The translations under genes and the position numbers were made by a program. DNA of 64,000 nucleotides from Methylacidiphilum infernorum V4 (lineage in GTDB: Bacteria > Verrucomicrobiota > Verrucomicrobiia > Methylacidiphilales > Methylacidiphilaceae): the NCBI RefSeq assembly GCF_000019665.1, contig NC_010794.1, positions 310,001-374,000 of the forward strand, read 5' to 3'. Under the pieces are notes generated by a model that saw only the letters and a program-made list of their open reading frames with translations, had not been told where the DNA came from and ran no database searches. This document shows positions 1,269-24,016 of the stretch, piece after piece (within the stretch, counting starts at the first letter, position 1; each line of letters starts with the position of its first letter).

Positions 1269-2888
1269 TCATTCCCTCAAGGTGCATCCTGTCTTCCCCC
1301 GCAGCCGGCAGTGCATGGTCTTGAGTCGACCACCATCGAAATATGGGAGCTCGATCTTCTCGTCGATGGTCGTGCAGTAGTTCTCAGCAAACAGTTGCAA
1401 GTGTGCTGCATCCCGAGCCACATCAGCGTCGGCGGGGAGGTGCTGAAGAATGGCGTTACTCACAAACATGATGAATTTGCTGCGAGCTCGGGTTAAAGTC
1501 ACGTTAAATCGCCTCGGGTTCAGAATGAATGCCTCTTCTGCGGCGACGAAATCGCGGTCAGCGACGACATAACTTGCTATCATCATGTCCCTCTCCTGGC
1601 CTTGGAACCTGTCTACCGTATCCACGAATGGGGGTGGTTCCATGGGCATCCCAGCTGCGTCTACCAGGAGGTTTCTGATAGTGGACATCTGCGCCCGGTG
1701 AGGTGTCACTATGCCTAGATGCTTGGACCAGAAATCATGGTCACCGGGACCGTTGCCGTCCTGCTCAAGGATGCGCCGGAACAGCAGGGCAAGAGCCGCA
1801 ACCATCTGGGCTTCGAACGGATTTGAAAGCGTCGACGTGTGAACGCCGTAACTGAGGACGACCACCGGTATATCCGGGTCGAGGATCTTTAGAAACAGGT
1901 CACTCCATGGCAGGTTTTCCGGCCACCCATCCGGTGGGCTGCCTGTTGCAGGGGGTAGAGTAATGTCGAGCCTTCGTTCTGGAAAAAACGCCTCGTATCC
2001 TTCGCTGTAGAACCGTTCCTTGGGCCATCCAGAAATCTCCGTGTTTGTCCGGTAATTGCGATCTAGGGCAACAGGATCTTTGCCGTGGGTTTCCTGCATG
2101 TACGAGAAGATGCAATCGAAAAGCCCCTGAACGCTATCTCGCATTTCGAATCCGTAGATCGGACCAAGCTGCTTGTGATCTCCAGCGAGGATTACATGCC
2201 CATCTTCACGCAGAAGCAGGAAATAGGCTGCCGCGAACGCCACCGGAACCTGCGATGCTTCGTCGATCACGAGGAGATCGAACCATCTGGCGACTGGAGT
2301 CCCATCATTCGAAACATCCTTTGCAAGTTGCCCAAGCTGCATCCAGGTACCACCAACCACCACATATTCTGTCCGTTCATGCATGGCTCCAGCCAGAACG
2401 CGTGCCGCATGGTCCTTGCGAACAACATCTTCGATGCGTTTATCGAGAGGAGGCTTCGCCGAATCGCTGCGCAGGCGCACAATACGCACATTGCCGGGCG
2501 GCTCTCCCAAGACAGAGGCGCGTCGCCGGTCGATCAAGTCCGCGACTTCTCTCAGGACATTGTCGATAGCGTTGTAATTGCTCGCGCCGACTCCGATCGA
2601 GATTGGTTCACCGCTATGCCATGCGTTTTCTATCCACCCCAGAATGATACTAGCCAGCACGGTTGTCTTTCCGGTCCCCGGCGGACCCCACAGCAATGAC
2701 AACCGGTCTGTGAACGAGGTCCGAAAGGCATCCGCTTGGCGGGGATTGAAGGGATGCTTCTGGTACTTTGAGACTTGGTTCAGAAGATACTCGACCTCTG
2801 CGTGGCCACGGGTCACCTGCAACTGCCCGGGCTCATACAGGAAGCCGTGAGCGGGTTCTGTCCGAGGATGTTGCACACGCCTTGCCAT
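1269..2888 (-). CDS. SF1 (Upf1-like) DNA/RNA helicase
   Basis: This is a 539-residue superfamily 1 helicase. A Q-motif-like FNPRQADAF (about 47-55) precedes Walker A GPPGTGKT (about 68-75). Further motifs are Walker B DLLVIDEASQVP, motif III LAGDHKQLGP, motif IV region LDRNYRTNTEI, motif V DTVDRFQGQERD and motif VI RFNVTLTRARSK. These are the AAA_11/AAA_12 domains of Upf1/Dna2-type helicases. ATG 2888 follows GGAGGAGG at good spacing, 2 nt after the stop of the nuclease gene. Related proteins often carry the nuclease and helicase on one chain, so the two genes probably act as one machine that unwinds and cuts DNA. No N-terminal accessory domain is present, because that part lies in the nuclease subunit. 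Loss of motif function is not apparent. Confidence 0.9.
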   Translation of the reverse strand: MARRVQHPRTEPAHGFLYEPGQLQVTRGHAEVEYLLNQVSKYQKHPFNPRQADAFRTSFTDRLSLLWGPPGTGKTTVLASIILGWIENAWHSGEPISIGVGASNYNAIDNVLREVADLIDRRRASVLGEPPGNVRIVRLRSDSAKPPLDKRIEDVVRKDHAARVLAGAMHERTEYVVVGGTWMQLGQLAKDVSNDGTPVARWFDLLVIDEASQVPVAFAAAYFLLLREDGHVILAGDHKQLGPIYGFEMRDSVQGLFDCIFSYMQETHGKDPVALDRNYRTNTEISGWPKERFYSEGYEAFFPERRLDITLPPATGSPPDGWPENLPWSDLFLKILDPDIPVVVLSYGVHTSTLSNPFEAQMVAALALLFRRILEQDGNGPGDHDFWSKHLGIVTPHRAQMSTIRNLLVDAAGMPMEPPPFVDTVDRFQGQERDMMIASYVVADRDFVAAEEAFILNPRRFNVTLTRARSKFIMFVSNAILQHLPADADVARDAAHLQLFAENYCTTIDEKIELPYFDGGRLKTMHCRLRGKTGCTLRE

Positions 2889-2890
2889 GA

Positions 2891-5548: not shown

Positions 5549-5549
5549 G

Positions 5550-7736: not shown

Positions 7737-7809
7737 GATCCGCATATAATTGAATATGAAACGATGTCAACAACAAAATAATGCGGATTGCATGAGCGTC
7801 ATGATCCGC
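7721..7809. repeat. 23-nt direct repeats bracketing a 43-nt AT-rich insert
   Basis: Positions 7721-7743 and 7787-7809 are the same 23-nt sequence with two mismatches; both contain AGCGTCATGATCCGC on the plus strand. Each copy holds the TCATGA stop-start junction. The right copy ends the 264-residue gene and the left copy begins the methyltransferase. Removing one copy plus the insert restores an ATGA overlap like other junctions in the operon, so this looks like a 66-bp duplication-insertion. Confidence 0.8.
7743..7770 (-). promoter_or_regulatory. Candidate sigma70 promoter of the second module
   Basis: Reading leftward, a perfect -35 TTGACA (7770-7765), a 16-nt spacer and TATATG (7748-7743) form a good vegetative promoter in an AT-rich 43-nt insert. 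The expected start point, about 7 nt past the -10, coincides with ATG 7736, so the transcript may be leaderless. No experimental support is available here. Confidence 0.55.
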
Positions 7810-8593
7810 TTCCTTTCGCCGCTGGCTGGCTTTTCGTGCGGAGCATGATCAAGTCCTGGTCAAGGCCGTGTCGCAGTACATCGAGCCGTCCGGATACCGC
7901 GACCAGGTGATCTGCGGATATTGGGCTGAGACGGAACGGGAACAGGCTCGTGGAATCGAGAACCGTTCTCAGAGCCACCGAACCGTTGGGATGAGCGTGC
8001 AAGAAGGCCTCGGCCAACCAGGCGATAACCTCCACCTGAGCTATGGCGAGTGAAAGCCCTGCGGTATAGATGCCTTTTTTCGATGTTTCTTTCAGGACCT
8101 CCCAATCGATGAAACTCCGCAGCACCCGTTGTGCCGCCCTGGATACCGTGTCGCGTTCCCCATATTGCTCCCGCACACGGCGCTGTACCTGGCTGGCTAC
8201 GGCCGTTCCCTGGAGCCTGAGCAGTCGCCCCACATGGGCCGCAATATTTCCCCAGAAAGGATAAACCGCCATGGCCATGCCCCAGTGAACTGCGATATGG
8301 TCCTTGCGCGGAAGGTGTGAGAGAAGCTTGAGGCCTTCCCGGTGAAGGGGATGGAGGTCGTGCGGTGGGCGGACCCAGATCTTCATCAGGATGGTGATCG
8401 TCTTGTCAAGCGAGCCGCGTATCTTCGTGTTATTGGAACGAAACATTTTCTGGAGATCTTCTTGTAGTGCTGTCTTCACAGCGGGTGCCTCGTTTCCCGC
8501 CAAAAAGAGATATGCAGTCCGTTCCAGCCACTTGAGGCGAACAAGACGATCGAGTCCGATTTGGTTGTATCGTCGGTTGGGCCGTGCACTCAT
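7799..8593 (-). CDS. Hypothetical protein in the BrxA position of BREX
   Basis: This 264-residue, mostly helical, basic protein has no motif I can name with certainty. It starts by ATGA overlap with the stop of pglZ and is the last gene of the BREX core, the place where type 3 loci carry BrxA (DUF1819, a small winged-helix DNA-binding protein). Some text fits a BrxA-like pattern, such as the stretch HIAVHWGMAMAVYPFWGNI followed by VSRAAQRVLRSFIDWEVLKE, which looks like a winged-helix segment. No signal peptide or membrane segment is evident. I infer a BrxA-equivalent DNA-binding role mainly from position. A lineage-specific accessory protein is the alternative. Confidence 0.5.
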   Translation of the reverse strand: MSARPNRRYNQIGLDRLVRLKWLERTAYLFLAGNEAPAVKTALQEDLQKMFRSNNTKIRGSLDKTITILMKIWVRPPHDLHPLHREGLKLLSHLPRKDHIAVHWGMAMAVYPFWGNIAAHVGRLLRLQGTAVASQVQRRVREQYGERDTVSRAAQRVLRSFIDWEVLKETSKKGIYTAGLSLAIAQVEVIAWLAEAFLHAHPNGSVALRTVLDSTSLFPFRLSPISADHLVAVSGRLDVLRHGLDQDLIMLRTKSQPAAKGSGS

Positions 8594-10596
8594 CCGTCCC
8601 TCCTATAGATCTGGACAAAAGGGACGAGTAGCTCCTCGACACTAATGCCACCATGACCGACTAGGGTTTTACCCGCCGGTACGAAAGCAGCCCGGTTCGG
8701 AGCGATGAGGGCGAGGTAGTCCTCTGGGAGGCCCACCGAGGACCACTCCAGGGACTTCGGGAATCGCTCCTTGACTTGATCCCTGAGCCTGGGATCGGAG
8801 TAGATACGAACACGCACGCCACGATGGTCCGCAATCGCCCCTTCGGAAGGCCGTCCCACGCCTTTCGACTCGATATTGCCGTGGTCCGAGGCAAGGTAGA
8901 TCTGGAAACCTTGGGTCTGAAGCAGGCCGAGAAGTTTCCACATGAATCCCTGCCTGGCCCATTGCCGAACTTGGTTGTGCATCCCCGCTGCACCCAGCTC
9001 CATGCCGTGCATGATCCTGTCGACCTTGCCAATGACCAGTCCGATGACACGTAGCCTGGGCCGGGCGAGACACTCGGAGACCTTGTCCAGGTCCCCGTCA
9101 CCCAGTCCCTTGGCGTAGGTCACCTCGTGCTGCGTCAACCCCTGATCGATCCAGAACTGTGTCCAAAGTTCCTGCTCCTTCTCTGTGGTATGGATACTTG
9201 CCGGAAAGTAGATCGGCGCTTTTCCGGCAAAGGCGGCCTGCCGGGAAACCGAGGTGATGGTGGGAATCCAAGCAAAAACGGCCTTCTCGTCGAACAGCAG
9301 CTTCGAGTCCAGCTCTTTGAGCACCTCGCGTAAGGCGATCCATTGGTCCAGGGCGAGACCGTCCATCAGCAGAAAAGCGATCTTCGAGTTCCGGTCATCC
9401 GCGAGCCTTCGGGCGAGGAACCGCGGGATGTGATGCAGCATCACCGGCGGCACGGGCGGAAGGTTGACCAGGCTAGCGTAGTGCTTCAGCACCCAATCCT
9501 TGAGTGCAGAATCGATCCGGGATCTCAATCCTTCCAGACGCTCCCGGTATTCTTCCTGCAGGGTGGTGTCCGGCTGCATCTCTAAGGATACGAGTTCCGC
9601 CCACGGGTAGGCAAATTGGAGCCACTCCTCATGACGCGCCTCCACCGTGGGGATCTTCTTCTCGATGGAATCCAGCAGCCCCTCCATGCGGCGGCGACGG
9701 TTCTCCTCGGGTGAGACTTTGATGCCGTAAGCCACCCATGTCTTGGCGAGCGCTTGTGATTGCTCGTGAGGTACGGGCTGGAGCAAGCCCTCGAGGAAAA
9801 GGTTGTTGATGTAAATGCGGACGTCGTCGTGGCCGAAAGGCAAAAGCGGCGGTCCTGGGAACTTGAAGCCGTAGTCCGCAGCGTCCTCGTGGACGGCATC
9901 GTCCTTCGGCTTTGCATACGAGTCCAGGAACACCGGCCAGCGCTCCTGCAGGAACGCAAAAAATGCTTTCGCTTCCGGAATGATGTCTTCCAGAGGCCAA
10001 TCCTCGAACAGGCTGTTTTGACGAAGCACCTGGATAAAGCGCTCATCGAGTATGGCCGGGATTCGTTGTCCGCGGTAATGACGGCGCAACAAGACCTGGA
10101 GCAGGTCCTGAGGCTCTTTGATGAGTTCCGGCGCGATCCCGAACACATGACGAAGGACGAAGTCCTTCGTAGCGTTGACGCCGAGCTGCCCCGGTGCGTG
10201 CTTCGTCTGCGCATCGAACAAGGCGTCGAGATCAGCCCGATCGAGTGCCGCGACCACGGAAGAGTCGAGAGTCGGGAAGAGATCGCTTAAGGAAAACGAG
10301 AGCTTGCGGCCAGCCTGCAGCAAGTCGTAGGGCAACTCATTGAGATCGTGTGATTCCAATCTCAGCACGACCACCAGATCGGTTTCCTCGCCACGGTCCC
10401 AGCGGGAACGGAACTTGGATTCGTAGGCATAGCGAAAGGCGACATGATCCTCGAACGGTATCAGCTCAAAGCCCCGTTCCCGGATCCCTGCAAGGATACC
10501 TTCTTCAAGGAGCAAGCGATCCGGATCCGCGATCAGGGTAAGCCGGGCGACCTGGGGTGTGAACTCACTCAGGATTTGGTCACGCCAACTACTCAT
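8590..10596 (-). CDS. pglZ: BREX phosphatase-fold protein PglZ
   Basis: This 668-residue protein has a C-terminal PglZ domain of the alkaline phosphatase superfamily. Evidence includes the metal-site strand AFLLMDGLALDQW (about 412), the second metal motif YLASDHGNIESKGVG (about 562) and the C-terminal VGHGGISVEELLVPF, which is characteristic of the family. The N-terminal half (IADPDRLLLEEGILAGIRER; VVVLRLESHDLNELPYDLL) is the usual PglZ nucleotide-fold-like region. PglZ is the hallmark of BREX and is required for phage resistance in characterised systems, though its substrate is not settled. ATG 10596 follows GGAGG and overlaps the helicase stop by 8 nt. The stop overlaps the next gene by ATGA. 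Length and motifs are complete, so the protein is probably functional. Confidence 0.92.
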   Translation of the reverse strand: MSSWRDQILSEFTPQVARLTLIADPDRLLLEEGILAGIRERGFELIPFEDHVAFRYAYESKFRSRWDRGEETDLVVVLRLESHDLNELPYDLLQAGRKLSFSLSDLFPTLDSSVVAALDRADLDALFDAQTKHAPGQLGVNATKDFVLRHVFGIAPELIKEPQDLLQVLLRRHYRGQRIPAILDERFIQVLRQNSLFEDWPLEDIIPEAKAFFAFLQERWPVFLDSYAKPKDDAVHEDAADYGFKFPGPPLLPFGHDDVRIYINNLFLEGLLQPVPHEQSQALAKTWVAYGIKVSPEENRRRRMEGLLDSIEKKIPTVEARHEEWLQFAYPWAELVSLEMQPDTTLQEEYRERLEGLRSRIDSALKDWVLKHYASLVNLPPVPPVMLHHIPRFLARRLADDRNSKIAFLLMDGLALDQWIALREVLKELDSKLLFDEKAVFAWIPTITSVSRQAAFAGKAPIYFPASIHTTEKEQELWTQFWIDQGLTQHEVTYAKGLGDGDLDKVSECLARPRLRVIGLVIGKVDRIMHGMELGAAGMHNQVRQWARQGFMWKLLGLLQTQGFQIYLASDHGNIESKGVGRPSEGAIADHRGVRVRIYSDPRLRDQVKERFPKSLEWSSVGLPEDYLALIAPNRAAFVPAGKTLVGHGGISVEELLVPFVQIYRRDG

Positions 10597-13411
10597 GGGT
10601 GCCTCCCTCCACGCGGACGAGAAGCAAGGGCACCATTTCCGGCAAGATCTGGGCCCTGCGCTCGAGTTGTTCCCTGAAGCGTTCTTCCTCCTGTTTCAAG
10701 AGACTCAGGCGATGGTTGCGGACCTGGGGCAGTCCGATGAGCTCGATGGCTCTGTGTCGTGCAGCGAGGGCGTACTCGCTCTTCTCACGCTCCCGATCAA
10801 GACGCTCCCGGTGAGCCTGCACCAACTCATCGTAGATCGTCTTCCCCTGTCGTTCTGCCGCCTCCCGGAGTCGCTGGAAGGCTTTATGAGAGGTCTCGAT
10901 GTCCAAATGCCGGAGGATCGTGGGTGGAGTTGTCAGGAGTTGATCCCAGATGTGCCGGGCAGTCGGGGCAAACACCCGACCGTCGTCGGCCAGGAACAAG
11001 GGCATGATCCGTCGACGATTCCAGTCGGCTGTCGAGATTGAGATTCGCCAGAGCGACCAGAAACCCATGATCTCTGGGGAAAGGCCAGGAAGCGTGATGA
11101 CAGGGACTGGTTGTCTCGGGGCAAGGGGAGGTAGGCACATGGCCAGCCCACGCACCTTGGGATCTTCCAGTGTCAAGTGGTAGCTCAAAGGCTTCTCTTC
11201 AGCCTCCTTGCTGGTGAAGACGACATTGGTCAGTCGCTCGCCGCTCGGCCAAGTGAGATCCCAGGCACCGTTCTTCCTCTCAGCCTTGCCGCCGTGAGCC
11301 TGCAGGTAGCTTACTGTCATGCACTCCACCCAATGCGGGAGCGGGTGGGCCAGCAGCCGCTGGGCCTCGCGAGGGTCCAGGTCTTCGGTAGAACCAAGCA
11401 TGGAAGCACTCTGTCGGGACTCCCGTGCCTGCTCCTGGATGCTTTTCAGTACCTCGTCGACCTTCGTCTCCACTACATCGGGATTGAGGATGGCCTCCAT
11501 GTACAGATCATCGAAGATCTGGCCTGCCTGGGCAGAGTCGAGCACGTCACCGGTCTTGTCGATGCCGAACTCTTCGAGGATGACCGCTAGTTTCTCCTCC
11601 AGGACCTCGCGGACGCGGTGTTCGACCGAGTCCTCGAACACGAAGTTGATGGCGTGCACCGTATGGGTCTGGCCGATGCGGTCCACCCGGCCGATGCGTT
11701 GTTCCAGGCGCATCGGGTTCCAAGGGATGTCGTAGTTGATGACCACATGGCAGAACTGGAGGTTGAGACCCTCACCACCAGCGTCCGTCGAGATGAGGAT
11801 GCGGGCATCCTTGGCGAATGCGTTCTGGACCCGCTTGCGCTCCTCCATGTCCATGGATCCGTTGAGGCATACTACCTTGAAGCCGCGCTCGGTCAGGAAC
11901 TCGTACAGCATCTCTTGGGTCGGCACGAACTCGGTGAACACCAGTACCTTGAGGTCCGGGTCGCCTTCCTCGACTTGGAGGCGGTATATCCAGTCCAGGA
12001 GCGCTTCGGCCTTGGCGTCCGGGCCTTGGGCTTCGCAGCGCTTGGCCGCTTCCAGGAGTAGCTTCACCTCGGCCCGTTCATTCTTCAGGGCCTTGAGCCT
12101 GGTCTTGAGCAGCGTGTCGATCTGCTCCTGGCCGTCCAGGTCGGCCCAGTCCTCCTCGGAGACCATGGTAAAGAGTGTGGGCTGTTCCTGCGCCTGCGGG
12201 GCCTCGAGCACTTCGAGGCGCCGCTGCAGGGTTGTGCGGATGGCACGGGTGCTGGAAACCACCAGGCGCTGCATCAGGATCATGAGGAATCCGATGTAGC
12301 TGTGCTTCTCGTGCATGGCCTGGTTGTAGCCTTCGCGCACATATTCGGTGACCTCCTCGTAGAGCAGCCGTTGATCCCGGTGGCGATCCTCCCAGGAAAC
12401 CGGTACCAGCTCCGTGCACCTGGGTTTGAAAAGCGGCTTGCCTTGTGCGTCGATGGCCCGGCGCTTCTCCGTGCGGATCACGTAGGGCTGTACCCGCTCC
12501 TTTGTCACGCTGGTCACATCGGGGAAGGCCTTGGCGTCGACCAGGGAAATCAGCCGGTGGAAGGCATCTGTCTTGCCCTGGTGCGGGGTGGCGGATAGCA
12601 GGAGCAGGTAGGGCACGGCCTCGGCCAGCCCCTGGCCGAGCTTGTAACGGGCCACCTGGTCCCTGCTCCCACCCAGGCGATGGGCCTCGTCCACGATCAC
12701 CAGGTCCCAGCCGGCGGAGATCAGGTCCTCGAAGCGCTCCCGGTTGTACTCGGCCACCTGTTCCCTCGACCAGCCGCGCCGTCCCTCCAAAGGCTTCACA
12801 GAGTCCATGGGGCAGACCACCTGTGGATGGCTCTGCCAGAGATTGCCTTCTTGGGCGATGCGGCGGTAGGCGGAGAAGTCGCTCGGGATGAGCAGGCGGA
12901 ACTCCTCTCCGAAGTGGGTGCGCATCTCCGCTACCCATTGGGTAACCAGGCCCTTCGGGGCGATCACCAGAGTTCGTCTCACCAGGCCCCGGAGCTTGAG
13001 CTCCCGCATGATTAGACCTGCCTCGATAGTCTTGCCGAGGCCCACCTCGTCCGCCAGGAGATAGCGCACGCGGTCATTGGAAATGGCCCTGGAGAGAGCC
13101 CGAATCTGATGGGGCAACGGGATGACGGACGATTCGATGGGAGCAAGCAGGATGTTCTGGGACAGCGCATCGGCCACCCGCGCCGCGGCGGCGAGATAAG
13201 CGATCTTTTCCACAGTGCCGACACTTGCTTCATGCATGGGCCGAAGGCGCGCGGCGGGCAATCGCACGACGGTATCCTTGCCCGGCAGCCAGACACGGCA
13301 GAAGGTCTCGCCCCAGAGCGTCTGGGACTCGATGATCCTGCAGGGCTCCCTGTGTTCGGGGCTCCATGCCCACTGATCGGGAGTGAACATGCTCTCAGCT
13401 ATCCACCTCAT
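10589..13411 (-). CDS. brxHII: SNF2-family helicase, BrxH type
   Basis: This is a 940-residue RapA/SNF2-like ATPase. Walker A is DEVGLGKT (121-128), followed by motif Ia VIAPKGLVTQW, motif II DLVIVDEAHRLGG, motif III LLLSATPHQGK, and in the C-terminal RecA lobe ISTDAGGEGLNLQF and motif VI QRIGRVDRIGQTH. The C-terminal third is charged and helical (ERLDREREKSEYALAARHR). Type 3 BREX loci carry a SNF2 helicase between the methyltransferase and PglZ, exactly as here. GC is among the highest in the window (about 60-70%), unlike the TrlF gene upstream. An alternative start is ATG 13390. It probably translocates on duplex DNA for the BREX complex. Confidence 0.88.
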   Translation of the reverse strand: MRWIAESMFTPDQWAWSPEHREPCRIIESQTLWGETFCRVWLPGKDTVVRLPAARLRPMHEASVGTVEKIAYLAAAARVADALSQNILLAPIESSVIPLPHQIRALSRAISNDRVRYLLADEVGLGKTIEAGLIMRELKLRGLVRRTLVIAPKGLVTQWVAEMRTHFGEEFRLLIPSDFSAYRRIAQEGNLWQSHPQVVCPMDSVKPLEGRRGWSREQVAEYNRERFEDLISAGWDLVIVDEAHRLGGSRDQVARYKLGQGLAEAVPYLLLLSATPHQGKTDAFHRLISLVDAKAFPDVTSVTKERVQPYVIRTEKRRAIDAQGKPLFKPRCTELVPVSWEDRHRDQRLLYEEVTEYVREGYNQAMHEKHSYIGFLMILMQRLVVSSTRAIRTTLQRRLEVLEAPQAQEQPTLFTMVSEEDWADLDGQEQIDTLLKTRLKALKNERAEVKLLLEAAKRCEAQGPDAKAEALLDWIYRLQVEEGDPDLKVLVFTEFVPTQEMLYEFLTERGFKVVCLNGSMDMEERKRVQNAFAKDARILISTDAGGEGLNLQFCHVVINYDIPWNPMRLEQRIGRVDRIGQTHTVHAINFVFEDSVEHRVREVLEEKLAVILEEFGIDKTGDVLDSAQAGQIFDDLYMEAILNPDVVETKVDEVLKSIQEQARESRQSASMLGSTEDLDPREAQRLLAHPLPHWVECMTVSYLQAHGGKAERKNGAWDLTWPSGERLTNVVFTSKEAEEKPLSYHLTLEDPKVRGLAMCLPPLAPRQPVPVITLPGLSPEIMGFWSLWRISISTADWNRRRIMPLFLADDGRVFAPTARHIWDQLLTTPPTILRHLDIETSHKAFQRLREAAERQGKTIYDELVQAHRERLDREREKSEYALAARHRAIELIGLPQVRNHRLSLLKQEEERFREQLERRAQILPEMVPLLLVRVEGGTHE

Positions 13412-13464
13412 ATTCTACCCGAAAAGGTAAAGCCAAATGATCTCCCAGCGGCACATTGCAACTA

Positions 13465-16218
13465 TCACACATGGCACCCCTCCAACGCGATTCGGCGGTA
13501 CCGTTGTTCGAAAGCTTCACGTCCACCCTCCATGATTGCGCAGATCGTGTCCCGTACAGCCTTTTGCTGGAGGCAGCCAACGATGTCTTGATGTGTCTCG
13601 CCCCCACGTGTGGCTAGTGCGACTACGATTTCGGCGTCCCCATTCACGACGATGTTGGCATTGTGAGTAACCACTATCACCTGTCGTTTACGCTTGATAG
13701 TTCGAAGCTGCTGAACGATGAGCTCATAAATAAGGCGATTGTCCAGATCATCCTCGGGCTGATCGAGTATGATTGGCTCTTCCCCATAGGAAAAGAGGAA
13801 AGCTAGGAGTGCTGCCGTCTTTTGCCCCGGCGATCCTTCGCGAATGGCCCGAAAGCCGGAACCTTCGGCCGATGTACTGTACTCAACCTTGAGCAAATCC
13901 TCCGGAAACCAGAGATCCAACCGGTCGATGACCTCAGGCGGAAGCTTGCGCAGATGACCTTCGAACCTCCGGTCCGCCAATTCCCCCTGGTAAGAGCCAT
14001 TTGCTATGTCGCGAAGCTTTGCTTTAATGGCCACAAGACGCTGCTCGATGTCCTCTGCGCTGCCCCCGTTTGGGTAGAGTTCTTCAACCAGTACACCGAT
14101 GTCCTTTTCGAAACCGCCCGACTCTCGTTGCAGCAGTTGCCGGAGCTCGAGTTCCACACCATCCCGTGCGCCATACGGAATGACATCGATCCGCACATAG
14201 GTGTTGCCACGAAGGATGTTGATCAGGAAGTCCTTGCGCCGCCGCGTGAGATCGCGGCGAAGTTCCGTTATCCGCTTGAGACTTTCGTCGGCCTGCTGTC
14301 GAATTTTCTGGAGGTCGATGCACCTGGATTCCAGATCCTTAAGTTTCCCCTCCAAGGCTTGTCGTCGCTGGACAAGTTCGCCGTATGCCGATGGGTCCCC
14401 CACCTTTTCCTCTTTTAGACGCTGGATGAGTTCCTTGTACTTCTGGATCGCACCGTCTACTGCCTGTTTCCATGGAGACCCGTCACGAGCCTGACGCCAT
14501 CGCCTTGCGATGTCATCAACCTGATTGGGGAGTTCCTCAAGCCTCTCTTTCACCGACTTGAGCTCATTCAGGGTATTCTCAGCTTTCCCTAGGATATCTA
14601 GATCCTCATCTACACCCGCTTCAAAGAATGAGACATCCAGATGATCTGGAAGCAATTCACGCGCCACCTTGCACAAGCGGTCGCTGGCATCGGTCCACGC
14701 ATTTTCCCAACTCTGCACCGCGCTCTGCTGGTGCTGGCGCTTCTGGTACTCTTTGAGCACATCCGCGTAACTCGCTTGTTCGAAAACGGAAAGCTTGCGC
14801 TTGATGTCCTCAAGCTCCCCGAGGAGTCGCTGCTGGTCCTCAAGTCTTGCTTTGATTTCGCGTGCCTTGGCCCGAAGCGAAAGGTAATGCGTTTCATTTG
14901 CATTCCAATCCTCCTTCCAGGACGGGCGACCAACCTCGCGGGCCTCATCCACGATTCGGAGGAGCTCCTGAGGATCTTTTGCCACTTCGAAGATCTGTTT
15001 CTGGCTATAAATGCGCACTGGGAATCGCTGAGCCACATCTCCTGGGTCCGATTGCCAATCGCCGTTTTCGTTCTGCACCTCAATGGGCACTGCGGTTTGG
15101 TTAGGGCTCCAATGGATGCGGAATCGAGTGCGATCCTTGCGGTAGTAGACCGTTAAATCTGCTTGATCGGTGAGCAACCCATTATCGTCCCGGCTCTGGT
15201 AGACATTTCTGTATTTCTGGAAGTCATTGGCCAATGCGGCTGGAAGCTCATCCTCGCGCTGCAGTGCAATCCTAAGAAATTCGACCAAGGTGGACTTCCC
15301 TGTCCCCCGGCCCCCGATGATCGCGTTGAACCATGGATTGAACTCCACCTTGAAGGTTTGGGATCGCCCCATGAAACGAGCGCTGCGTACCTCAATCGAC
15401 TCGACGGCCATGTCGCCGTGTCGGTTAGGGTCCTCCGAAGCTTGATCAGAACGCAATACCGAGAGGGGTCCGTCGAGCAGTGCAAGACGCAGCCCCTCCA
15501 GACTTGGCTTCTCCATCTTTACCCATGTGAAGTGGCTTCCCGGGTAACGCTGTGCGGCGTTACCACAAGGATGATGCGAATCCGAGCCCAGCAGCTCGGT
15601 CCAATGTAGCTTCTTGTCGTGATAGACCTGCGGCTTTTTCGATGATGGGTCCACGATTTCCATGGCGAGGACCGATTCGCAGCCTAGTGCTCCCGCGAGT
15701 GTTGTCCCGGTCAACTTGAAAAGTCCGTTGACGCCGTCCACGTGGGCCGGGATTGCAATACCACCGGCTTGTTCGATCTTCTGGCACACTTCAAGAAACG
15801 ATTTCCTCGTAACATCATCACTCCTCCCCTTCTTTCCCTCGTATTCGACGGCACCAAGGAGTGTGTCAACATCGGAAGTCGCTTTTGATGGATCGAGGAT
15901 CGCGAGGAGATGGACGCCGCCGTTTACGGAAATCTCGACACCAGGAAAAAGATAAAGGGGCCGAAAATCCGAGTGTTTTTGAAGCTCGGGGTTTTCCAAA
16001 GCCTCCTTCAGTTTGTCAATCCAGACACCAGTGTTATGGTCTGTGATGGCAATGCAATCAATGCCAGCTCGCATATAGTCAAGTAGCCACTCTGCTGGTG
16101 TGCGGCTCTTAAACTTCGCCTGATCGGGGCCTTTGCCGTAGTCATACGAGGCTGGGGTATGTGTGTGAAAGTCAAACTTCCACCAACGAGCACCTGGCCA
16201 ATTCCATTCAGTATTCAT
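13465..16218 (-). CDS. PHP-phosphoesterase plus SMC-like ATPase (TrlF type)
   Basis: This 917-residue two-part protein starts with a PHP metallo-phosphoesterase domain: FDFHTHTPASYDYG, IAITDHNTGVW, GVEISVNGGVHLLAI, IPAHVDG and LLGSDSHHP supply the metal ligands. An SMC/RecN-like ATPase follows, with Walker A IGGRGTGKSTLVEF, long charged coiled coils (about 430-700), the signature-like GSPGQKTAALLAFL and Walker B PIILDQPEDDLDN, ending in a switch-like VVTHNANIVVNGDAE. This is the TrlF layout. I chose ATG 16218, which overlaps the methyltransferase stop (ATGA) after GGGAGGAG. An ABC-ATPase-gated nuclease or phosphodiesterase is the likely activity, as in other PHP-SMC defence proteins. It is not a standard BREX gene, and its GC (about 50-55%) is lower than that of its neighbours. 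Confidence 0.86.
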   Translation of the reverse strand: MNTEWNWPGARWWKFDFHTHTPASYDYGKGPDQAKFKSRTPAEWLLDYMRAGIDCIAITDHNTGVWIDKLKEALENPELQKHSDFRPLYLFPGVEISVNGGVHLLAILDPSKATSDVDTLLGAVEYEGKKGRSDDVTRKSFLEVCQKIEQAGGIAIPAHVDGVNGLFKLTGTTLAGALGCESVLAMEIVDPSSKKPQVYHDKKLHWTELLGSDSHHPCGNAAQRYPGSHFTWVKMEKPSLEGLRLALLDGPLSVLRSDQASEDPNRHGDMAVESIEVRSARFMGRSQTFKVEFNPWFNAIIGGRGTGKSTLVEFLRIALQREDELPAALANDFQKYRNVYQSRDDNGLLTDQADLTVYYRKDRTRFRIHWSPNQTAVPIEVQNENGDWQSDPGDVAQRFPVRIYSQKQIFEVAKDPQELLRIVDEAREVGRPSWKEDWNANETHYLSLRAKAREIKARLEDQQRLLGELEDIKRKLSVFEQASYADVLKEYQKRQHQQSAVQSWENAWTDASDRLCKVARELLPDHLDVSFFEAGVDEDLDILGKAENTLNELKSVKERLEELPNQVDDIARRWRQARDGSPWKQAVDGAIQKYKELIQRLKEEKVGDPSAYGELVQRRQALEGKLKDLESRCIDLQKIRQQADESLKRITELRRDLTRRRKDFLINILRGNTYVRIDVIPYGARDGVELELRQLLQRESGGFEKDIGVLVEELYPNGGSAEDIEQRLVAIKAKLRDIANGSYQGELADRRFEGHLRKLPPEVIDRLDLWFPEDLLKVEYSTSAEGSGFRAIREGSPGQKTAALLAFLFSYGEEPIILDQPEDDLDNRLIYELIVQQLRTIKRKRQVIVVTHNANIVVNGDAEIVVALATRGGETHQDIVGCLQQKAVRDTICAIMEGGREAFEQRYRRIALEGCHV

Positions 16219-18956
16219 ACCTCTCCTCCCATCCTTGTCACCGCCTGGTCGTACCACATGAGGAGCTTGGTATCCTCCTGGAGGACATTATCGGGGATCT
16301 TGCGTGCCACGGCAATGATGGTGGCGTAGTCGTGCTCCTGCCATGCCTTCTTGAAGCCGGCACGGACGGCCTCGAGGCGGAACACCTTCAGGCACTTCTG
16401 CTTGGACTGGCGGTACTCCTCGAACTCGTGCAGTAGGGCCCGCTCGCGGAGCTTTTCCAGGTCGACGGCCTTGTTCGGATCCGGGATGTACCAGCGGTCC
16501 TTGGCCTTGGCCCGGAGGCGCTCGTGATCCTTGGGGAGGTTGCGCAGCTCCTTGAAGTTGCTGGAGAGGTAGCTGTGGATCTGGCTCGGCACCTCGCCCT
16601 TACCGTCGTAGCGAAGGAAGTTCTGCTCCAGCAGCTCGGAGAGCTCGAGCGGCTTCTCGTGCTTCTGCCAGCCGCCGATCTCCTTGAGGAACTGCGGATG
16701 AAGCTCCTGGAAGGTCTGCGGCTTCCTGGTGAGCTGCTGCTTGAGCCACTGTATGGCGGAGGCCTCGTCGGTGACGAAGAGCTGGAGATGCAGGACCTCC
16801 TTTACCTTCATCCGCTTCTTGTCGTACTCCGCCGCCTGCTCGGGCAGGAAGTACATCCCGTCGCGTTCCGGGAAGCACTTGGCGAGACCGGCGTAGAACT
16901 CCGCCACGGAGAGCGGCACCGTCACGCCACGCTGGACATGGAAGGCCACCATGCGGTCGAAGAGCAGGTAGTTCTGCCGCTCGGCGATGACCTCCGCCTT
17001 GCCGTCCTTTGAGACGAACACAGGCAGTTGCTTTAGGTGCATGCGGATGAAGTACCATACGCCTTCCTTGGTACCTGCGATCAGCTTGAACCTTTCCTCA
17101 AGGCCGCCGTTGGGTTTGTAAACTGTTATGGCTAAGTCTTTGTCTACCGCAGCTGCCTTGTGGTCTTGATGGAGTGTTGAGTGAACCTTGTCTAATACTG
17201 CTACGGTTGCGACAACAAACCCTGCCGCCTCAAGAGCTTGCTGTATGGCAGCCCATATCGCGTTGGATGAGTTGTGAAATACCATCACCATCCATCGACC
17301 TGGTTTTAGAACGCGGTAATACTCACAGAAACAACGCGTCATTATCTGTTGGTATTCGAATAGCCCCTTCTTCTGGGCGGGATTAGTGATGGCTTCGTTG
17401 ATCTTGTTTGTAAATACTCTCAACCACCACTCTGCCAAATAGTTTTGCTCTGAATAATTGATGTTCCCCCCGAAAGGCGGGTCGGTGAATATAAAATCTA
17501 CGGAGTTGTCGGGAATTTGGAAAAGCTGTGTAGCACTTTGCGTGGAAACAAAGGATCGCCCGATGACCCACTTGTTTCTCAATTTAGCTATTTGCTTCAG
17601 CATGGATAACAGCTTTATTCCGATATTTGTTTCGACCTGCAGTGTCGGAACATAGAGTGTATTTGACAATGGACCAACAGGGGATCCTTGGGGACGCCTT
17701 GCATCTACATAAAAACGATTGCGTCGAGTGGCATTATTCTCCAGTATCGTCAATACAGCAAACAGAGCAGCTCGTTTCAGGTCTTGATTCCCAATAGTTG
17801 CTACACGCGCGAGAGCGAGGTAGTTGCGTCTTGTGTAGAAATGATGTATGTGGGTGATCCCCCAGTATTCAGGAAGGTTGTTCCGCTCATGTGTCATGTG
17901 CGAGTAAGGAAGTTCTGTAGGCGTAATTAAGACATGATTTTCACCAACGGAAGCAGCTAATTGCGTATCGGCGTGTGTGGCTTCTCGTCGAATAGTGCGA
18001 TTTCCTATTTTCATAGAGACGAGAACCATTGTGGTTTTGGCTATCTTTGTGGGTCTGTTGAGCCAGGGATCAAACTCTGTTGTAAATGCCTTTTTTTGTC
18101 TATCCGACCGGATCGTAAATCCACAGTTGGGGCAGTTATACTCAGGCAACATTCTGTGATGCTTATAATCAATCACAATATCATATAGACGAAAGATATG
18201 CCCGCATTCCGGGCATTCTCCCCAATCGCTCCAAACTGCGTAGTTAAATGAAACTTCTTTTCCATCCCAATCGGTCAGATACAGGGGAATGATATCGCGT
18301 TGAATAATCTGGCCTAGATCTCCATCAGGTCCTTCTGCCAACTTTGGCGGCAAAGGCGCATTCATTACACTGGCTATGAACGTCGCGGCAGGAGACAGAT
18401 CTATGAGTATTGCATGACGCTTACCCCATTTGGAGTCGGTGTCCATCGTGGCGGCAAGTTCATGATCAGGGTGTTCAAGCAAGAGGCAGGCTACTCCCGT
18501 CATTCCGGTGCCGCAAAAAGCGTCCAGGACAATGTCACCAGGCTCCGTATAGTGGAGCAGGTAGTGTTGAATAGCCTTTGGAGGGACCTTTGTATGATAA
18601 GCTGGCAGACGATACAGGGGGTCATTCTTACCCTCCGTGACATCTACTGCTAAAGGTTCCTTGCTATAAGAACTGCCCGGTTCGTAGGGCTTACCATAGT
18701 GCCTTATAAAATCTTCGATAAAGGGGTTTGGGCATGCCGTATAATACGGCGGATCGGAAAGAGCTAATATGTCCTCGTCGCTAGCGTCAGGGAAACCTGG
18801 AAATTGACGAAACTTGGGATCCTGAAGCTTCTGGCGTAACTTGTCGAGAAAAAACTCGCGCCGCACCTTTTCGTTGGGAAAAGTCAGACCTAGGCACTCA
18901 ACCGGCTTCTCACCCTCGTCTATAGAGGGAAAGAGTTGCTGTTTAGAACATTTCAT
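16215..18956 (-). CDS. pglX: BREX adenine-type DNA methyltransferase (PglX type)
   Basis: This 913-residue DNA methyltransferase has motif I LDAFCGTGMTG (about 144-154), zinc-ribbon pairs CPECGH and CPNCGF in an inserted domain, and motif IV FTDPPFGGNINYSE (about 540). An additional N-terminal LSDPPYYTACPNPF is also present. It fits the methyltransferase slot of type 3 BREX, which marks host DNA and is also needed for defence. ATG 18956 overlaps the previous stop (ATGA); a frame extension to 19109 runs inside that gene and is not used. Composition is mosaic: codons 1 to about 630 are about 40-45% GC, while codons from about 635 on (below position 17,060) are about 58-62%. That suggests recombination within the gene, exchanging the catalytic and recognition part while keeping the native C-terminus. 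Confidence 0.87.
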   Translation of the reverse strand: MKCSKQQLFPSIDEGEKPVECLGLTFPNEKVRREFFLDKLRQKLQDPKFRQFPGFPDASDEDILALSDPPYYTACPNPFIEDFIRHYGKPYEPGSSYSKEPLAVDVTEGKNDPLYRLPAYHTKVPPKAIQHYLLHYTEPGDIVLDAFCGTGMTGVACLLLEHPDHELAATMDTDSKWGKRHAILIDLSPAATFIASVMNAPLPPKLAEGPDGDLGQIIQRDIIPLYLTDWDGKEVSFNYAVWSDWGECPECGHIFRLYDIVIDYKHHRMLPEYNCPNCGFTIRSDRQKKAFTTEFDPWLNRPTKIAKTTMVLVSMKIGNRTIRREATHADTQLAASVGENHVLITPTELPYSHMTHERNNLPEYWGITHIHHFYTRRNYLALARVATIGNQDLKRAALFAVLTILENNATRRNRFYVDARRPQGSPVGPLSNTLYVPTLQVETNIGIKLLSMLKQIAKLRNKWVIGRSFVSTQSATQLFQIPDNSVDFIFTDPPFGGNINYSEQNYLAEWWLRVFTNKINEAITNPAQKKGLFEYQQIMTRCFCEYYRVLKPGRWMVMVFHNSSNAIWAAIQQALEAAGFVVATVAVLDKVHSTLHQDHKAAAVDKDLAITVYKPNGGLEERFKLIAGTKEGVWYFIRMHLKQLPVFVSKDGKAEVIAERQNYLLFDRMVAFHVQRGVTVPLSVAEFYAGLAKCFPERDGMYFLPEQAAEYDKKRMKVKEVLHLQLFVTDEASAIQWLKQQLTRKPQTFQELHPQFLKEIGGWQKHEKPLELSELLEQNFLRYDGKGEVPSQIHSYLSSNFKELRNLPKDHERLRAKAKDRWYIPDPNKAVDLEKLRERALLHEFEEYRQSKQKCLKVFRLEAVRAGFKKAWQEHDYATIIAVARKIPDNVLQEDTKLLMWYDQAVTRMGGEV

Positions 18957-19555
18957 ACATTTTCTCCCTGTTCCCTGAGTATTTGGAGTAATGAATCGCA
19001 ATCTGTGTACGCGGCGTGGGGAATCGTATGGGCTGGTTTTCCAACTATGATCCGAATCTCCGATTCCATAATCTGGGCACGTACTACATAGCCTATGAGC
19101 CATGCACATGACACGGCTGGTGCAACGGCAACTTGAATGAGAAAGTCTGGATAGTCCAGAACCCGTAGTTTTTCGCCAGGATGTAATTTCGCAGGATAGA
19201 GAAATGTTTGATGCTGGAAGATATCGTCAGTCGTAACGATTTCCATGGTTTTGACGCCGATCTTTAGATGGCCGACGGTAATGTCTTGCTTTATGTCCTC
19301 GTGTCGGTGCACCAGCTTGGGGGCTGGCGTGAAACGGATAGCATTAGCAGTTAGCCATTTTTCTACAGCACTCTCACCCATATCACCTATCGCATGAGCA
19401 TCCTCACTTCGTTTTCCGTGATGCCGGTATTTCCAACCTAATACCTCTTCGTCCAAACGGGTGCGTTCAATGCCTAGCTGCCTGGAGCGTTCAATCTCGG
19501 CATCTGTAAGAGGAATCTCGATTACAAGATGTCCGTTCAGGCTAATAGTCTTCAT
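18953..19555 (-). CDS. Unknown protein coupled to PglX, possible PD-(D/E)XK fold
   Basis: This is a 200-residue cytoplasmic protein I do not recognise. A central stretch HEDIKQDITVGHLKIGVKTM has the Asp ... Gly-Val-Lys-Thr spacing common in restriction-like PD-(D/E)XK folds. It follows a helix with GDMGESAVEKWLTAN, resembling the Glu-containing first helix of such nucleases. The stop overlaps the methyltransferase start by ATGA and the gene begins 12 nt after the BrxC stop. Its GC (about 43-50%) matches the first two thirds of the methyltransferase and not BrxC, so the two were probably acquired together. It may be a cognate nuclease, a specificity factor or a modulator of that methyltransferase. 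The fold assignment is an inference. Confidence 0.55.
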   Translation of the reverse strand: MKTISLNGHLVIEIPLTDAEIERSRQLGIERTRLDEEVLGWKYRHHGKRSEDAHAIGDMGESAVEKWLTANAIRFTPAPKLVHRHEDIKQDITVGHLKIGVKTMEIVTTDDIFQHQTFLYPAKLHPGEKLRVLDYPDFLIQVAVAPAVSCAWLIGYVVRAQIMESEIRIIVGKPAHTIPHAAYTDCDSLLQILREQGENV

Positions 19556-19567
19556 AGACGCAATCTC

Positions 19568-22500
19568 CTACTCCAGTACGATTCTCACCTTGCCGGGCTC
19601 TTTGCCCTTGGTGAGTTCATCGAGGTATTCCTCGAAGCGTTTCTTCATCTCCGCCAGCGTCGCCGGTGAGCCGCCCTTGATAAGGGCTATGCGCAGATCC
19701 TCGGTCTTCACCGCAACCTTGACCAGCCCTGAGAGCACCTCCTTCAGGGCGTGAATGAAATCCTGGCCAATTTCGTCGGGCAGCTTCCGCTCCTTGAGGA
19801 AGACATCCACCAGCTTCCTGGGCTCGGGCTTGAGCAGGTTGAAGTTGACGCGGGTGGTCGGGTCCTCCAGGTTGTCCAGCAGCGTCTGGGTCCATTCCTC
19901 GAGGAGCTTGTCCAGCTCCGTGTCCATCTGCTCGAGCTCGGCCGCGGCATGTGCGGCAGGCGCCTCCGTGCCGGGCCGGAAGCCGCAATGCGGGCAGACC
20001 GGCGATGCGTCGAGGTCCTGCTCGGTGAGTGTAGAGCAGCTCTTCAGGCCGTCCAGGCGTTTCTGGAAATCGATCAGGTGCTGGCGCGGCATCAGGTCGA
20101 TGGTGGAGAGCTTCGAGAGGGTCTTGAGCCGTTCGTCGCCCATCAGCGTGCTCTTGCGTTTGTCCTCGTTCACGCCTAGCCGGGCCCGGGTGTGCATGGC
20201 AAGATAGGCTTGCACATAGGACTTCTTGAGGTCGGTGAGCTTGCACAGGGTCTGCTGGCGGAAAGTGCTGGACGTGTGCTGGGACGGGTCCGACACCTGC
20301 ACGAGCACCGCGTCCCGGGTCTTCTTCATCTGCTCCACCCATTCGTGGTCAATGGGCAGCACCGCCTCGGCGGTGGAGAGATAGGAGGCCACAGGGCCCA
20401 GCTCTCTCACCAGCTCCCTCAGGGACGCGATCTCCGAGAGAACCTTCAGGCCGTATTCGTGACGCTCCACATCCTGGACGTCGTAGCGGAAGTTCTTAAG
20501 CTTGCCGGGCGAGGAGTAGGCCTGGAGAGATTCCAGGAAGTTCTTGGTCTGGTCGAGCCGGTCGCGCTGCTGGGCTGCTTTCTCCTCGGCGAGCAGGTTC
20601 CTGCCCCAGAATGTCAGGCCGCTTTGCAGGCTCTGCTGGACCAGGACCAGCTTCTCCACAACCTCGGAGATAGTTTTCTGGAGCTGCTGGACCGGCTCTT
20701 CCTTGCCCTGGGTGACGAGTTGCACCATGCCCGGTGCTAGTCCGAAAAGTTCGAAGAGTGCCTTGAGCACGGGCAAGTTCCAGTCCTTGGGCCGTTCGAC
20801 GTGCTTGAAGCGGACCAGCTCGTCGATGCTCGTCGCGGCCAGTTGCGGCAGCCCGGTGGCGTCAAACTTCTTGCCGGGAATCGATAGCACCAGCTCACCG
20901 GAGTAGACCAGCGCAGCCAGGACCACGACAGCCCATTCGGGCTCCAGACGGTAGCCCTTGTCCGGTGCGAAGTACTCGACGCCGTAGACCTCCTGGATCA
21001 GCTCCGAGCGGTTGACCACCTGGCCATGCCCCTTCTTCTTGAGGATGTCCATGATGTGCCTCGCGTACTTGGAGCGGTTCGGATCGAGCCGCTCGCCATC
21101 GAGGAGCTCCAGGGCGTCGAGCACGGCGGTCGCCTGCTTTGTGCGATTCTGTCCAGCAATGGCGCGCAGGGCGTCCTCGGATGCCTGCTCGCGGTTTTGG
21201 CCCGTGATGAGCACCGAGAAGTAGGGATAGTCGGGAGCCTGGTCCCGAAAGTGTGTTTCCAGGACATCGCCGGCGATAGTGTTCACCAGGTCACGGAAGT
21301 TGATCCGCTCGAAGGAAGCAAGCCCGGAAAGCTCGCGGATGGATTTGCCCTTGGCCCGTTCTACCAGCGACTTGGTGCGTCCCTGGTAGGTTACCTCGAA
21401 GGCATCGGTCATGTGCTTCTGCAGCCAGCCCACCAGGTCCCGCAGGAATCCATTGGCCTTGGACTCGTAGGTGGCCTTGGCGTGGCCGCTCGAGGTGGAC
21501 GCGAGGTCCAGCGCCGCGGCGTAGTTCCTCAGCGCGGTGCGAAACTCTTCGTCCTTTTTGGTCAGGCGAAAGAACACTTCGTCGGCCTTCTTCTCGTCCT
21601 TGAAGTGCGGTGGATCGAACGGCTGGATGAAGTAGAGGTAAAAATCACGGGGCGGTACAGCCGTCGAGCGCTCGTTGGGAGCACCGAAGAAGAGATATCC
21701 TTGTCTTGCCGCCTTGCGCTCCAGCCATTGTAGCTCGTGCTGCCAGATCTTGTAGCCGGTGACGTAGGTCTGGTCGGTGCACTCCATGACCCGTTTCAGG
21801 GCCTCGTAGTAGTAGCGGTCGAGCTGGGAATCATCGATGCTCTCGGCGCGCTTCTCGATTAGTGCGTCGAAGTCGTCGGTCTTCTTGAGATCCAGGTAAT
21901 ACTGCCGGTTATCCGGGTTAGAGGAGATGAACTGGCCGCTGACTGTCTTGTGGATCTCGCGCAGGACCGTTTCCACCTGGGACAAGAGGTCGTCAGCCGG
22001 ATCTCCGCCCAGGCCCTCAATGCCGGGCTGGTAGAGACAGAGCGCGTCGCGCAGCTCTTCGGCCGTGGCACCCAGAGGTGCGTAGATGTCTGCGGTCGTC
22101 AGCCGGTGGACCGAGAGCGCGTGGATGATGCGGAGTGCCATGTCCTTATACGCCGGCCGGGTGAATGCCTGCTTGATTCGGGACTCGAGCACCTGGCTGC
22201 AATCGATCACCGCCTTGATATCCGGGTCGGTGCGAAAGGAGGGATTATCGAGCAGGTTCGCCCAGTAGCTGTCGTAGGCGATGAGACCGGGCCGGTCCTC
22301 CGGCAACTCCTGGTCGAGCAGATTCTCACAGGCCCTCGATAGGGTCTTGAGCACCTCGCGTTTCTCCGCCGTCCTGACGCGTTCGAAGGTGTCGATGTAG
22401 TCGGGATGGACCGGGAAGAGGCGGACGAACTCGTCCATCCGCTCGATCATTCGGCCGTAGAACTTGGCGAACGGTGTGAGATGCTCGCGAATCTTGGTCT

Positions 22501-23299
22501 GTTGCTCGCCGGTCTTCTTGAGCAGGCGCTCGGCGACGACGAACTTCACGTCCTTGCGGGCGATGAGGACCTGTTCGAAGCGGTCCTTGACCCGGCGGAT
22601 GCTGTCGGCCACGAAGGCGAAACGGGGGCTGTCGAATATGGCCTCCTGTACTCCCGCCATGAAGCGAAAGCGCAGATCCTTACAGACCTCGCCCACCTCG
22701 CGGAGGAAGTTGAGGTCGAGGATCAGCTCCTGGTCCTTGCGGGTGCGGAGATAGTCCAGCAGCTCATCCACGACCAGGAGCAGGCCATGGTCCGAATACT
22801 CCTGGTGGAACGCGGCCATCATCTCCTCGAAGGCCCGCTTGTTGCTCACGACCTGGCTGGCATCCGGGAAGGGGTAGGTCACGCCCATGGCGGCCAGGTG
22901 CTCCTCCAGCTCGCCGACGATGATGTCCCGCAGCGACATGGTGGTGGCCCCGATCTCGGTGCGGATCACCTTGAACTTGCCGGCGATCCGCTCCGCGGCT
23001 TGTGCCACCTGTGCGTTGCCCAGGGCAGAAAGCAGGTCCGCGTGCTCGGCGATGCTGGAGATCACCGACATCAGGTGTGACTTACCGGTGCCGTAGTTGC
23101 CCACGACAAGCAGCCCCTTGTTATCGACGGGCTGGTCGAACTGAAGCTGGGGGATCACAAGGCCGGTCAGCCTCTCGGCCATCTCGTTGGAGATGACATA
23201 GGTGCTGACCAGCTGCCTGGCCCTTGCGGCCTCATCCGCATCTCGTAGCTGGACTACGGACTCTATGGGCTCGAACTGGATCAATTCTCCATATCTCAT
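19568..23299 (-). CDS. brxC: BREX ATPase BrxC (DUF499/DUF6079-like)
   Basis: This 1243-residue large P-loop ATPase has Walker [11 protein letters not shown] (about 66-75) and Walker [13 protein letters not shown] (about 173-184), followed by long helical regions. There is one CPHCGF pair near residue 1110. The N-terminus [20 protein letters not shown] and overall size match BrxC/PglY of BREX, an AAA+ protein usually next to BrxF in type 3 loci. The start ATG 23299 is 37 nt after the BrxF stop. No stop or frameshift interrupts the 3.7-kb frame, in contrast to the decayed genes further right. It is expected to be a hexameric or scaffold ATPase of the defence complex in the cytoplasm. Confidence 0.9.
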
Positions 23300-23336: not shown

Positions 23337-23813
23337 TCATGTCGTCATCTCCGGACAGGCCACCATAAAATCGCGAATCGGGTATCGACGGTATTCGCGG
23401 TGGTCTGGGACGGCGTAGTTCACATAACCATCCACGATGGATCCGTTCCAGGCGGCCACGATCGTCTTGTTCCGGGACAATCTCTGAAGCAGACGCAAAG
23501 GATCATGCTCCAGGTGGACATCGAAAAGGATCTCGATGTTGTCGAGCAAAACCAGCTCGCCTGTGGCTTCACCCATGATTTCGCCCAAGATCCGCTGTAG
23601 CTTCCGAGCCCGTTGGCTTTTGGCGAGGTCCAGCATCCGGCGAGACAGCTCGAGATTGACGTTGACGAGCGGTGCGGAGGTCGAGGCCGACACCTCCCAG
23701 AGGGCACCCGTCTTCCCGCTTCCCGCCGGGCACACCACCAGTATCAGGCGGTGATAGAGTTCGCGAGCCTCGCGGATCTTCCGCAGGACCTGATCCACCA
23801 ATGGCTCAGCCAT
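23337..23813 (-). CDS. brxF: BREX-3 P-loop protein BrxF
   Basis: This 158-residue ATPase has Walker A CPAGSGKT (28-35) and a Walker B-like strand [13 protein letters not shown] (about 86-98), followed by [20 protein letters not shown], which I recognise as typical of BrxF. BrxF is the small P-loop subunit specific to type 3 BREX and heads its operon. I place the start at ATG 23813 because it overlaps the TAA of the upstream helix-turn-helix gene (TAATG), and length then fits the family (about 150-160). A longer open frame to 23912 overlaps that regulator and adds unrelated residues. Its presence is the strongest single marker that this is a type 3 system. Confidence 0.88.
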
Positions 23814-24016
23814 TACTCGTTTCCTCCGTCTTTCGTATCGTCGTGTGTCTCTTCCAACCAGCGGTCGATGGCTTCCTTCCGAAAGCGTCAATGGGGGCAA
23901 ATCTTCTGGCACAGGACTTTGCCTTCCCGAACGAGCTTGTAGAGCATCGACTTCGGTATCTTCAGGTAGGCAGACAACCCGTCGATGGTCAGGACGGCAC
24001 CTGGTTTCTCATCCAT
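23813..24016 (-). pseudogene. Excisionase/MerR-like helix-turn-helix gene with internal TGA
   Basis: From ATG 24016 (AGAGGTG upstream) the protein reads MDEKPGAVLTIDGLSAYLKI and PKSMLYKLVREGKV, the typical HTH_17 excisionase/MerR-like DNA-binding domain. At 23890-23888 the frame meets TGA and then continues without a shift as RFRKEAIDRWLEETHDDTKD up to TAA 23815-23813. Family members have Trp at this point (...HWRF...), so a TGG to TGA change is the likely lesion. The truncated product would keep the recognition helices but lose the wing and last helix. The gene lies first in the BREX operon, its stop overlapping the BrxF start, so it is a natural autoregulator. UGA read as Trp or a sequencing error are less likely alternatives. 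Confidence 0.75.

Follow-up and report, generated by a model that had tools for sequence, protein, structure and literature searches.

The stretch of DNA analysed here, called the window, comprises 64,000 nucleotides of the Methylacidiphilum infernorum V4 genome (contig NC_010794.1, positions 310,001 to 374,000). It carries all six core genes of a type 3 BREX system, those for BrxF, a DUF6079-type BrxC, PglXI, BrxHII, a BREX-3 PglZ and BrxA, in one single-strand operon; the 2026 survey of Rakesh and Krishnan (PMC12839542) names the same six as the core of type 3 BREX. The order of the operon is brxF, brxC, a 200-aa ORF, pglXI, trlF, brxHII, pglZ and brxA, and its features in window coordinates are as follows.

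23337..23912, minus strand: brxF (NF033453, 191 bits, cut-off 50)
19568..23299, minus strand: brxC, DUF6079 ATPase (PF19557, 2015 bits; PADLOC BrxC, 2159 bits)
18953..19555, minus strand: 200-aa ORF in a second cargo slot (brxC-pglX), no family match in profile searches; its stop overlaps the pglX start as ATGA
16215..18956, minus strand: pglXI, N6-adenine methyltransferase of 913 aa, left border of the slot (PADLOC PglXI, 1397 bits)
16215..16230, minus strand: pglX 3' end GGGAGGAGAGGT-ATGA, with a Shine-Dalgarno-like sequence in the last codons and overlapping stop and start, a layout common to most BREX-3 loci
13465..16218, minus strand: trlF, Ppl-like, clade A, PHP plus SMC/Rad50-like ATPase (NF045780, PADLOC Ppl, motifs, Foldseek)
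13412..13464, minus strand: gap of 53 nt from the trlF stop to the brxHII ATG, right border of the slot
10589..13411, minus strand: brxHII, SNF2-type helicase (PADLOC BrxHI/BrxHII, 1670 bits), the type 3 helicase according to PMC12839542
8590..10596, minus strand: pglZ, BREX-3 type (NF033449, 930.6 bits, cut-off 250)
7799..8593, minus strand: brxA (PADLOC BrxA, 400 bits)

The trlF gene therefore lies between the methyltransferase gene and the helicase gene on the same strand, as a preliminary description of this DNA had stated. For the 200-aa ORF, an impression of a PD-(D/E)XK fold is not claimed, the AlphaFold model having a pLDDT of 35. Beyond brxA, closely packed genes on the minus strand (1269-7745) look like a second defence operon, containing a second N6 methyltransferase (5550-7745, minus strand), a protein weakly similar to TM0106 RecB-like nucleases (2891-5548, minus strand) and a DNA2/IGHMBP2-like SF1 helicase (1269-2894, minus strand).

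The trlF product has 917 aa, begins with ATG and is intact without an internal stop. The proposal that it is a TrlF-type fusion of a PHP phosphoesterase with an SMC-like ATPase is well supported: the TrlF family NF045780 is matched over the full length (residues 9-910) with 636.7 bits against a cut-off of 350, and the PADLOC Ppl model gives 491.6 bits. The protein misses the cut-off of the Ppl equivalog NF042955 (581.7 bits against 1000) and is 31% identical over 99% to a plasmid Ppl, and judged by such scores it is Ppl-like but not Ppl in the strict sense. A PHP metallohydrolase-type domain at the N-terminus is combined with an ABC/SMC-type ATPase with a coiled coil at about residues 270-880, where the Pfam matches are AAA_21/SMC_N. 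Foldseek placed JetC, MukB, Smc and Rad50 chains, which have the SMC/Rad50 head, at the top of the list for an AlphaFold model; because this model was built from 6 sequences, with a pLDDT of 66 and of less than 50 in the C-terminal half of the PHP domain, we used it for the similarity of the ATPase head alone. The PDB search by sequence returned weak Rad50/SMC matches and nothing else. All the PHP metal ligands (HxH, DH, E, H, H, DxH), whose alignment had been suggested as a check, are present as D16, H18, H20, D60, H61, E95, H103, H159, D213 and H215, and they are identical in the TrlF proteins of two other BREX-3 loci, L068 and L101. The ATPase motifs are likewise intact: Walker A GGRGTGKS (302-309), SPGQ in the signature region (796-799), Walker B DQPEDD (819-824) and the H-loop histidine H852.

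We searched 84,980 species genomes for BrxC of this type and kept 80 loci of the 452 stretches encoding a BrxC relative, to which 6 loci from a survey of the host phylum were added. The preliminary description had asked whether other type 3 BREX loci carry TrlF at this position, and at least five others have the gene, at least four of them exactly at the pglX-brxHII junction; all five proteins pass the NF045780 cut-off. With these loci and the conserved PHP ligands, both conditions named beforehand as refuting the proposal went the other way. The TrlF proteins of L068 (Deltaproteobacteria) and L101 (Acidobacteriota) are 57% identical to that of the window and start at the pglX stop, while divergent TrlF proteins are found at the same junction in L095 and L097 and between brxC and pglX in L052. 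In the host phylum, 12 of 289 genomes have a TrlF above the NF045780 cut-off, or by a rough estimate about one per 80 Mb, the loose matches below the cut-off being mostly SMC-type ATPases or stand-alone PHP proteins. Because TrlF is so infrequent there, its presence in 4 of 43 slots greatly exceeds what random placement would give, although defence genes do cluster.

These 43 slots belong to the loci that are fully visible, and they support the earlier statement that TrlF is not a BREX core gene, since the loci other than the four with TrlF between pglX and brxHII have other cargo or none. The gap between pglX and the next core gene exceeds 300 nt in 39 of the 43 (median 2.8 kb), and it is shorter than 100 nt, without cargo, in L061, L070 and L092. 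Sixteen loci have an OLD-like ATPase there, five a Schlafen AlbA_2 protein, four TrlF and two IetA-IetS, and among the several other kinds of cargo is an Mrr-NACHT-like protein; a motif search found a P-loop protein in 26 of the 43 slots. Partners of the OLD-like ATPase are a protein of 349-381 aa in one set of loci, and a small HEC-03A-like protein with an RNA ligase in 6. The latter three-gene cargo (L024, L048, L060, L086, L090 and L091) is possibly a module of RNA cut-and-seal type. CRISPR type III-like proteins were also observed right after pglX, Cmr1 in L047 (19466-21850) and Csx11 in L054 (7522-12860). The gap between brxC and pglX is a second variable position, which often contains a Schlafen AlbA_2 protein.

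Direct evidence of cassette exchange at the pglX-brxHII slot comes from three loci (L023, L091 and L093) in which near-identical cores flank unrelated genes: brxC and brxH are about 90-95% identical at the DNA level, homology breaks off at the pglX stop, to within a few bases, and from the brxH start onwards the DNA again matches at 93-94% identity. Rather than inserted in the operon, trlF is better described as occupying a variable slot. We rejected the idea that TrlF replaces a missing BrxHII, because the window has both, and the loci without a BrxH match hold various cargo; a BrxH match is absent from L101, which has TrlF, and equally from loci with other cargo.

The GC content is 45% in the far part of the window but mostly 55-63% in the operon, where pglX and the 200-aa ORF have lower values, and this BrxC is absent from all four congeners searched; on these two grounds the whole BREX island was probably acquired. 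It had been noted that the composition of trlF differs from that of brxC and brxH, and this difference is real (GC3 of 0.60 for TrlF, 0.79 for BrxH and 0.84 for BrxC), but it is not a sign of foreign origin of trlF, since PglX (0.61) and BrxA (0.63) have similar values. Composition was therefore rejected as evidence of a recent insertion of trlF; the genes that deviate are brxC and brxH, and those located past brxA resemble trlF. Within pglX itself, the GC content rises from 46-49% over the first two thirds of the gene to 57-62% over the final third, and DNA homology between near-identical loci is lost in the middle of pglX; these two observations suggest that the target-recognition part of pglX has been exchanged.

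The border between pglX and its cargo has a characteristic form. In the window, the pglX stop and the trlF start overlap as ATGA with GGGAGGAGAGG immediately upstream, the final pglX codons being ATG GGA GGA GAG GTA TGA, and the translational coupling of trlF to pglX claimed previously is supported by this layout of overlap and upstream Shine-Dalgarno-like sequence. Across BREX-3 loci the C-terminus of PglX reads LMWYDQAxTRxGG. As raw counts without a shuffled control, a Shine-Dalgarno-like tetramer is present in 48 of 55 pglX tails, and tetramer and nearby ORF start occur together in 39 of the 55; an ORF of at least 100 codons begins within 12 nt of the pglX stop in 44. To call the pglX tail a plug-in ribosome site would be the reading of a pattern, not proof, and the G-rich codons could be retained for the sake of the protein.

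Two phylogenetic trees give information on the origin of the TrlF genes in BREX-3. The TrlF proteins of the window, L068 and L101 form one clade in both (100/99; 98/98), and this clade adjoins stand-alone TrlF of plasmids and viral contigs with about 50% identity; the proteins of L095, L097 and L052 belong to a second clade, where they are mixed with TrlF from outside BREX. At least three changes of the BREX-3 label are needed on the trees. BREX-3 has thus taken up TrlF repeatedly, from a Ppl-like clade A and from a clade B that is accompanied by TrlG. The PHP ligands and the ATPase residues are intact in clade A, and in every aligned member of clade B, D60 is replaced by N and H215 by K or Q. 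TrlF of viral contigs was found in 17 loci with an alignment as query and in none by a single-sequence scan.

In L095, L097 and L052, the gene after trlF overlaps it by 13 nt. The L097 product combines SLFN_AlbA_2 with HATPase_c_4, which is the published layout of TrlG in the Photorhabdus temperature-restricting locus (TRL, a TrlR-TrlF-TrlG operon; PMC7554251), and the L095 and L052 products are its homologues. The same paper names plasmid pYR3 as a TRL carrier, and the TrlF and TrlG of pYR3 are 47-53% and 52-57% identical to those of the three BREX-3 pairs. L068 has a remote TrlG with about 29% identity. TrlG is not directly downstream of trlF in the window, where brxHII follows after 53 nt, and a search of the whole host genome, which was run without a positive control, did not find it. 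The TrlF-TrlG pair is also located within type I restriction-modification (RM) operons of plasmids, with overlapping genes in the order hsdR-trlF-trlG-hsdS-AAA-hsdM, and with type I RM genes in a viral contig, as follows.

L171, 8992-12776, and L172, 8989-12776: TrlF-TrlG in type I RM operons of Klebsiella plasmids
L163, 8001-11701: TrlF-TrlG with type I RM genes in a viral contig

A further pair (L146) is accompanied by HmaA- and HmaB-like genes, and an E. coli plasmid has TrlF without TrlG after a type I-like methylase. TrlF modules, being present in BREX-3, type I RM and Hma-like loci, are thus repeatedly associated with operons in which methylation marks the DNA as self.

We consider it probable, with considerable room for doubt, that the trlF of the window is an anti-phage gene of TrlF/Ppl type that occupies the pglX-brxHII slot as one of several interchangeable cargoes and provides a second, later layer of defence. 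The biochemical basis for this view is E. coli Ppl, reported in a 2026 review (PMC12904381) to be a 3'-5' exonuclease of single-stranded DNA that is kept off by nucleotides on its PHP and NTPase domains, and that is activated when depletion of the nucleotide pool coincides with 3'-OH ends. The TrlF of the window is expected to act like Ppl because it has the same layout and intact sites, and is most likely a nucleotide-gated 3'-5' single-stranded DNA exonuclease serving as a second layer; this mechanism would be carried over by family, not by close orthology, the identity being 31% and the score below the NF042955 cut-off. In the proposed course of events, the constant end of pglX, with its Shine-Dalgarno-like sequence, would start translation of the adjoining cargo, whose dose would thereby be tied to the BREX methyltransferase. 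Bound nucleotides would hold the ATPase head and the PHP site inactive, as in E. coli Ppl, until a phage that had passed BREX drained the nucleotide pool and exposed 3'-OH DNA ends, whereupon the PHP domain would degrade DNA in the 3'-5' direction. TrlF coupled in this way would act as the second layer because, in the order of events that we infer, the nucleotide drain is late and the phage is already past BREX. That TrlF could be a back-up called upon once BREX has failed is a plausible suggestion, drawn from the pattern of the cargo slot, the published biochemistry of E. coli Ppl and the growth arrest by the TrlF-TrlG operon (PMC7554251).

The main rival to this reading is that TrlF is an independent passenger, a self-sufficient anti-phage protein that shares the promoter and mobility of BREX but neither senses nor backs it up, so that the slot is simply a safe landing place. 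Ppl of E. coli consists of a single gene (PMC12904381), close relatives with 50% identity occur as solitary genes on conjugative plasmids and in viral contigs, and GmrSD inside the BREX locus of E. coli ECOR21 blocks T2 without PglX (PMC12373910). However, clade A TrlF from BREX-3 hosts of different phyla forms a clade of its own, as is expected of long residence in BREX, trlF is laid out coupled to pglX, and the slot favours modules of a P-loop ATPase with a putative effector; we therefore regard a mere passenger as unlikely, though deserving serious attention. The coupling to pglX may also be taken to mean that BREX and TrlF are one machine, in which TrlF takes part directly in restriction, for example by resecting 3' ends that arise from nicking by PglZ. 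Ppl works on 3'-OH ends (PMC12904381), and PglZ of type I BREX is a metal-dependent nuclease according to the title of PMC11974810. Most BREX-3 loci nevertheless have other cargo or none, so that TrlF is dispensable for BREX-3, and its presence does not track the loss of BrxHII, which makes this idea improbable.

It might also be supposed that the gene belongs to a module whose main effect is abortive growth arrest, as in the Photorhabdus TRL operon, which stops growth on a temperature upshift and in which the arresting part would be TrlG, not TrlF, the mutations mapping to TrlG (PMC7554251). The pair shared by L095, L097 and L052 with the TRL plasmid pYR3 fits such a device, but the window has no TrlG, and its TrlF belongs to the other clade and has an intact PHP site; we give this explanation hardly any weight for the window. 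Beyond the window, a broader generalization of the second-layer reading may be tentatively offered, although we lean against it at present: BREX-3, type I RM and Hma-like systems would serve as chassis, each with a standard socket; in BREX-3, the ribosome-binding site for an interchangeable second-line module would lie in the 3' codons of the methyltransferase gene, and the TrlF(-TrlG) TRL would be one such module, an anti-phage growth-arrest device that has so far been read as a temperature switch.

TrlF/Ppl and back-up nucleases embedded in BREX are already known kinds of systems, and our literature search found no paper joining TrlF with BREX. The present locus would add a PHP-ATPase class to the BREX back-up effectors and suggests that BREX operons combine an unchanging chassis with a second line of defence that can be exchanged. 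A fixed slot with exchangeable cargo, usually laid out coupled to the methyltransferase gene, gives the testable rule that the second line is encoded by whichever gene follows pglX, and the uncharacterised modules in the same slot of other loci are good candidates for new anti-phage effectors. Three lines that were not connected in the literature found, namely the BREX accessories, Ppl and the Photorhabdus temperature-restricting locus, are hereby linked.

Compared with known systems, the TrlF of the window shares with E. coli Ppl the domain order, the length and the intact PHP ligands, and the two align end to end; Ppl stands alone, whereas this TrlF lies inside BREX and below the Ppl equivalog cut-off. 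With the TrlF-TrlG of Photorhabdus and pYR3 it has the TrlF family in common, but it belongs to the other clade and lacks TrlG. The type I RM operons with TrlF-TrlG on plasmids and in a viral contig differ in having type I RM in place of BREX as host system and a TrlF of clade B. From type 3 BREX as described, the window shares the six core genes and adds the 200-aa ORF between brxC and pglX and trlF between pglX and brxHII. A parallel in arrangement is the group of embedded back-up effectors in the main text of PMC12839542 (GmrSD/BrxU, PARIS-like OLD+TOPRIM, Schlafen, HEPN and PIN). The catalogue there lists HNH, HKD, PD-(D/E)XK, TOPRIM/OLD, HEPN, PIN and Schlafen, and that main text names neither PHP, TrlF nor Ppl, while the sections consulted describe no fixed slot or pglX-encoded ribosome site; its embedded effectors are, like trlF, nuclease or ATPase genes flanked by core genes, and a back-up role has been proposed for them.
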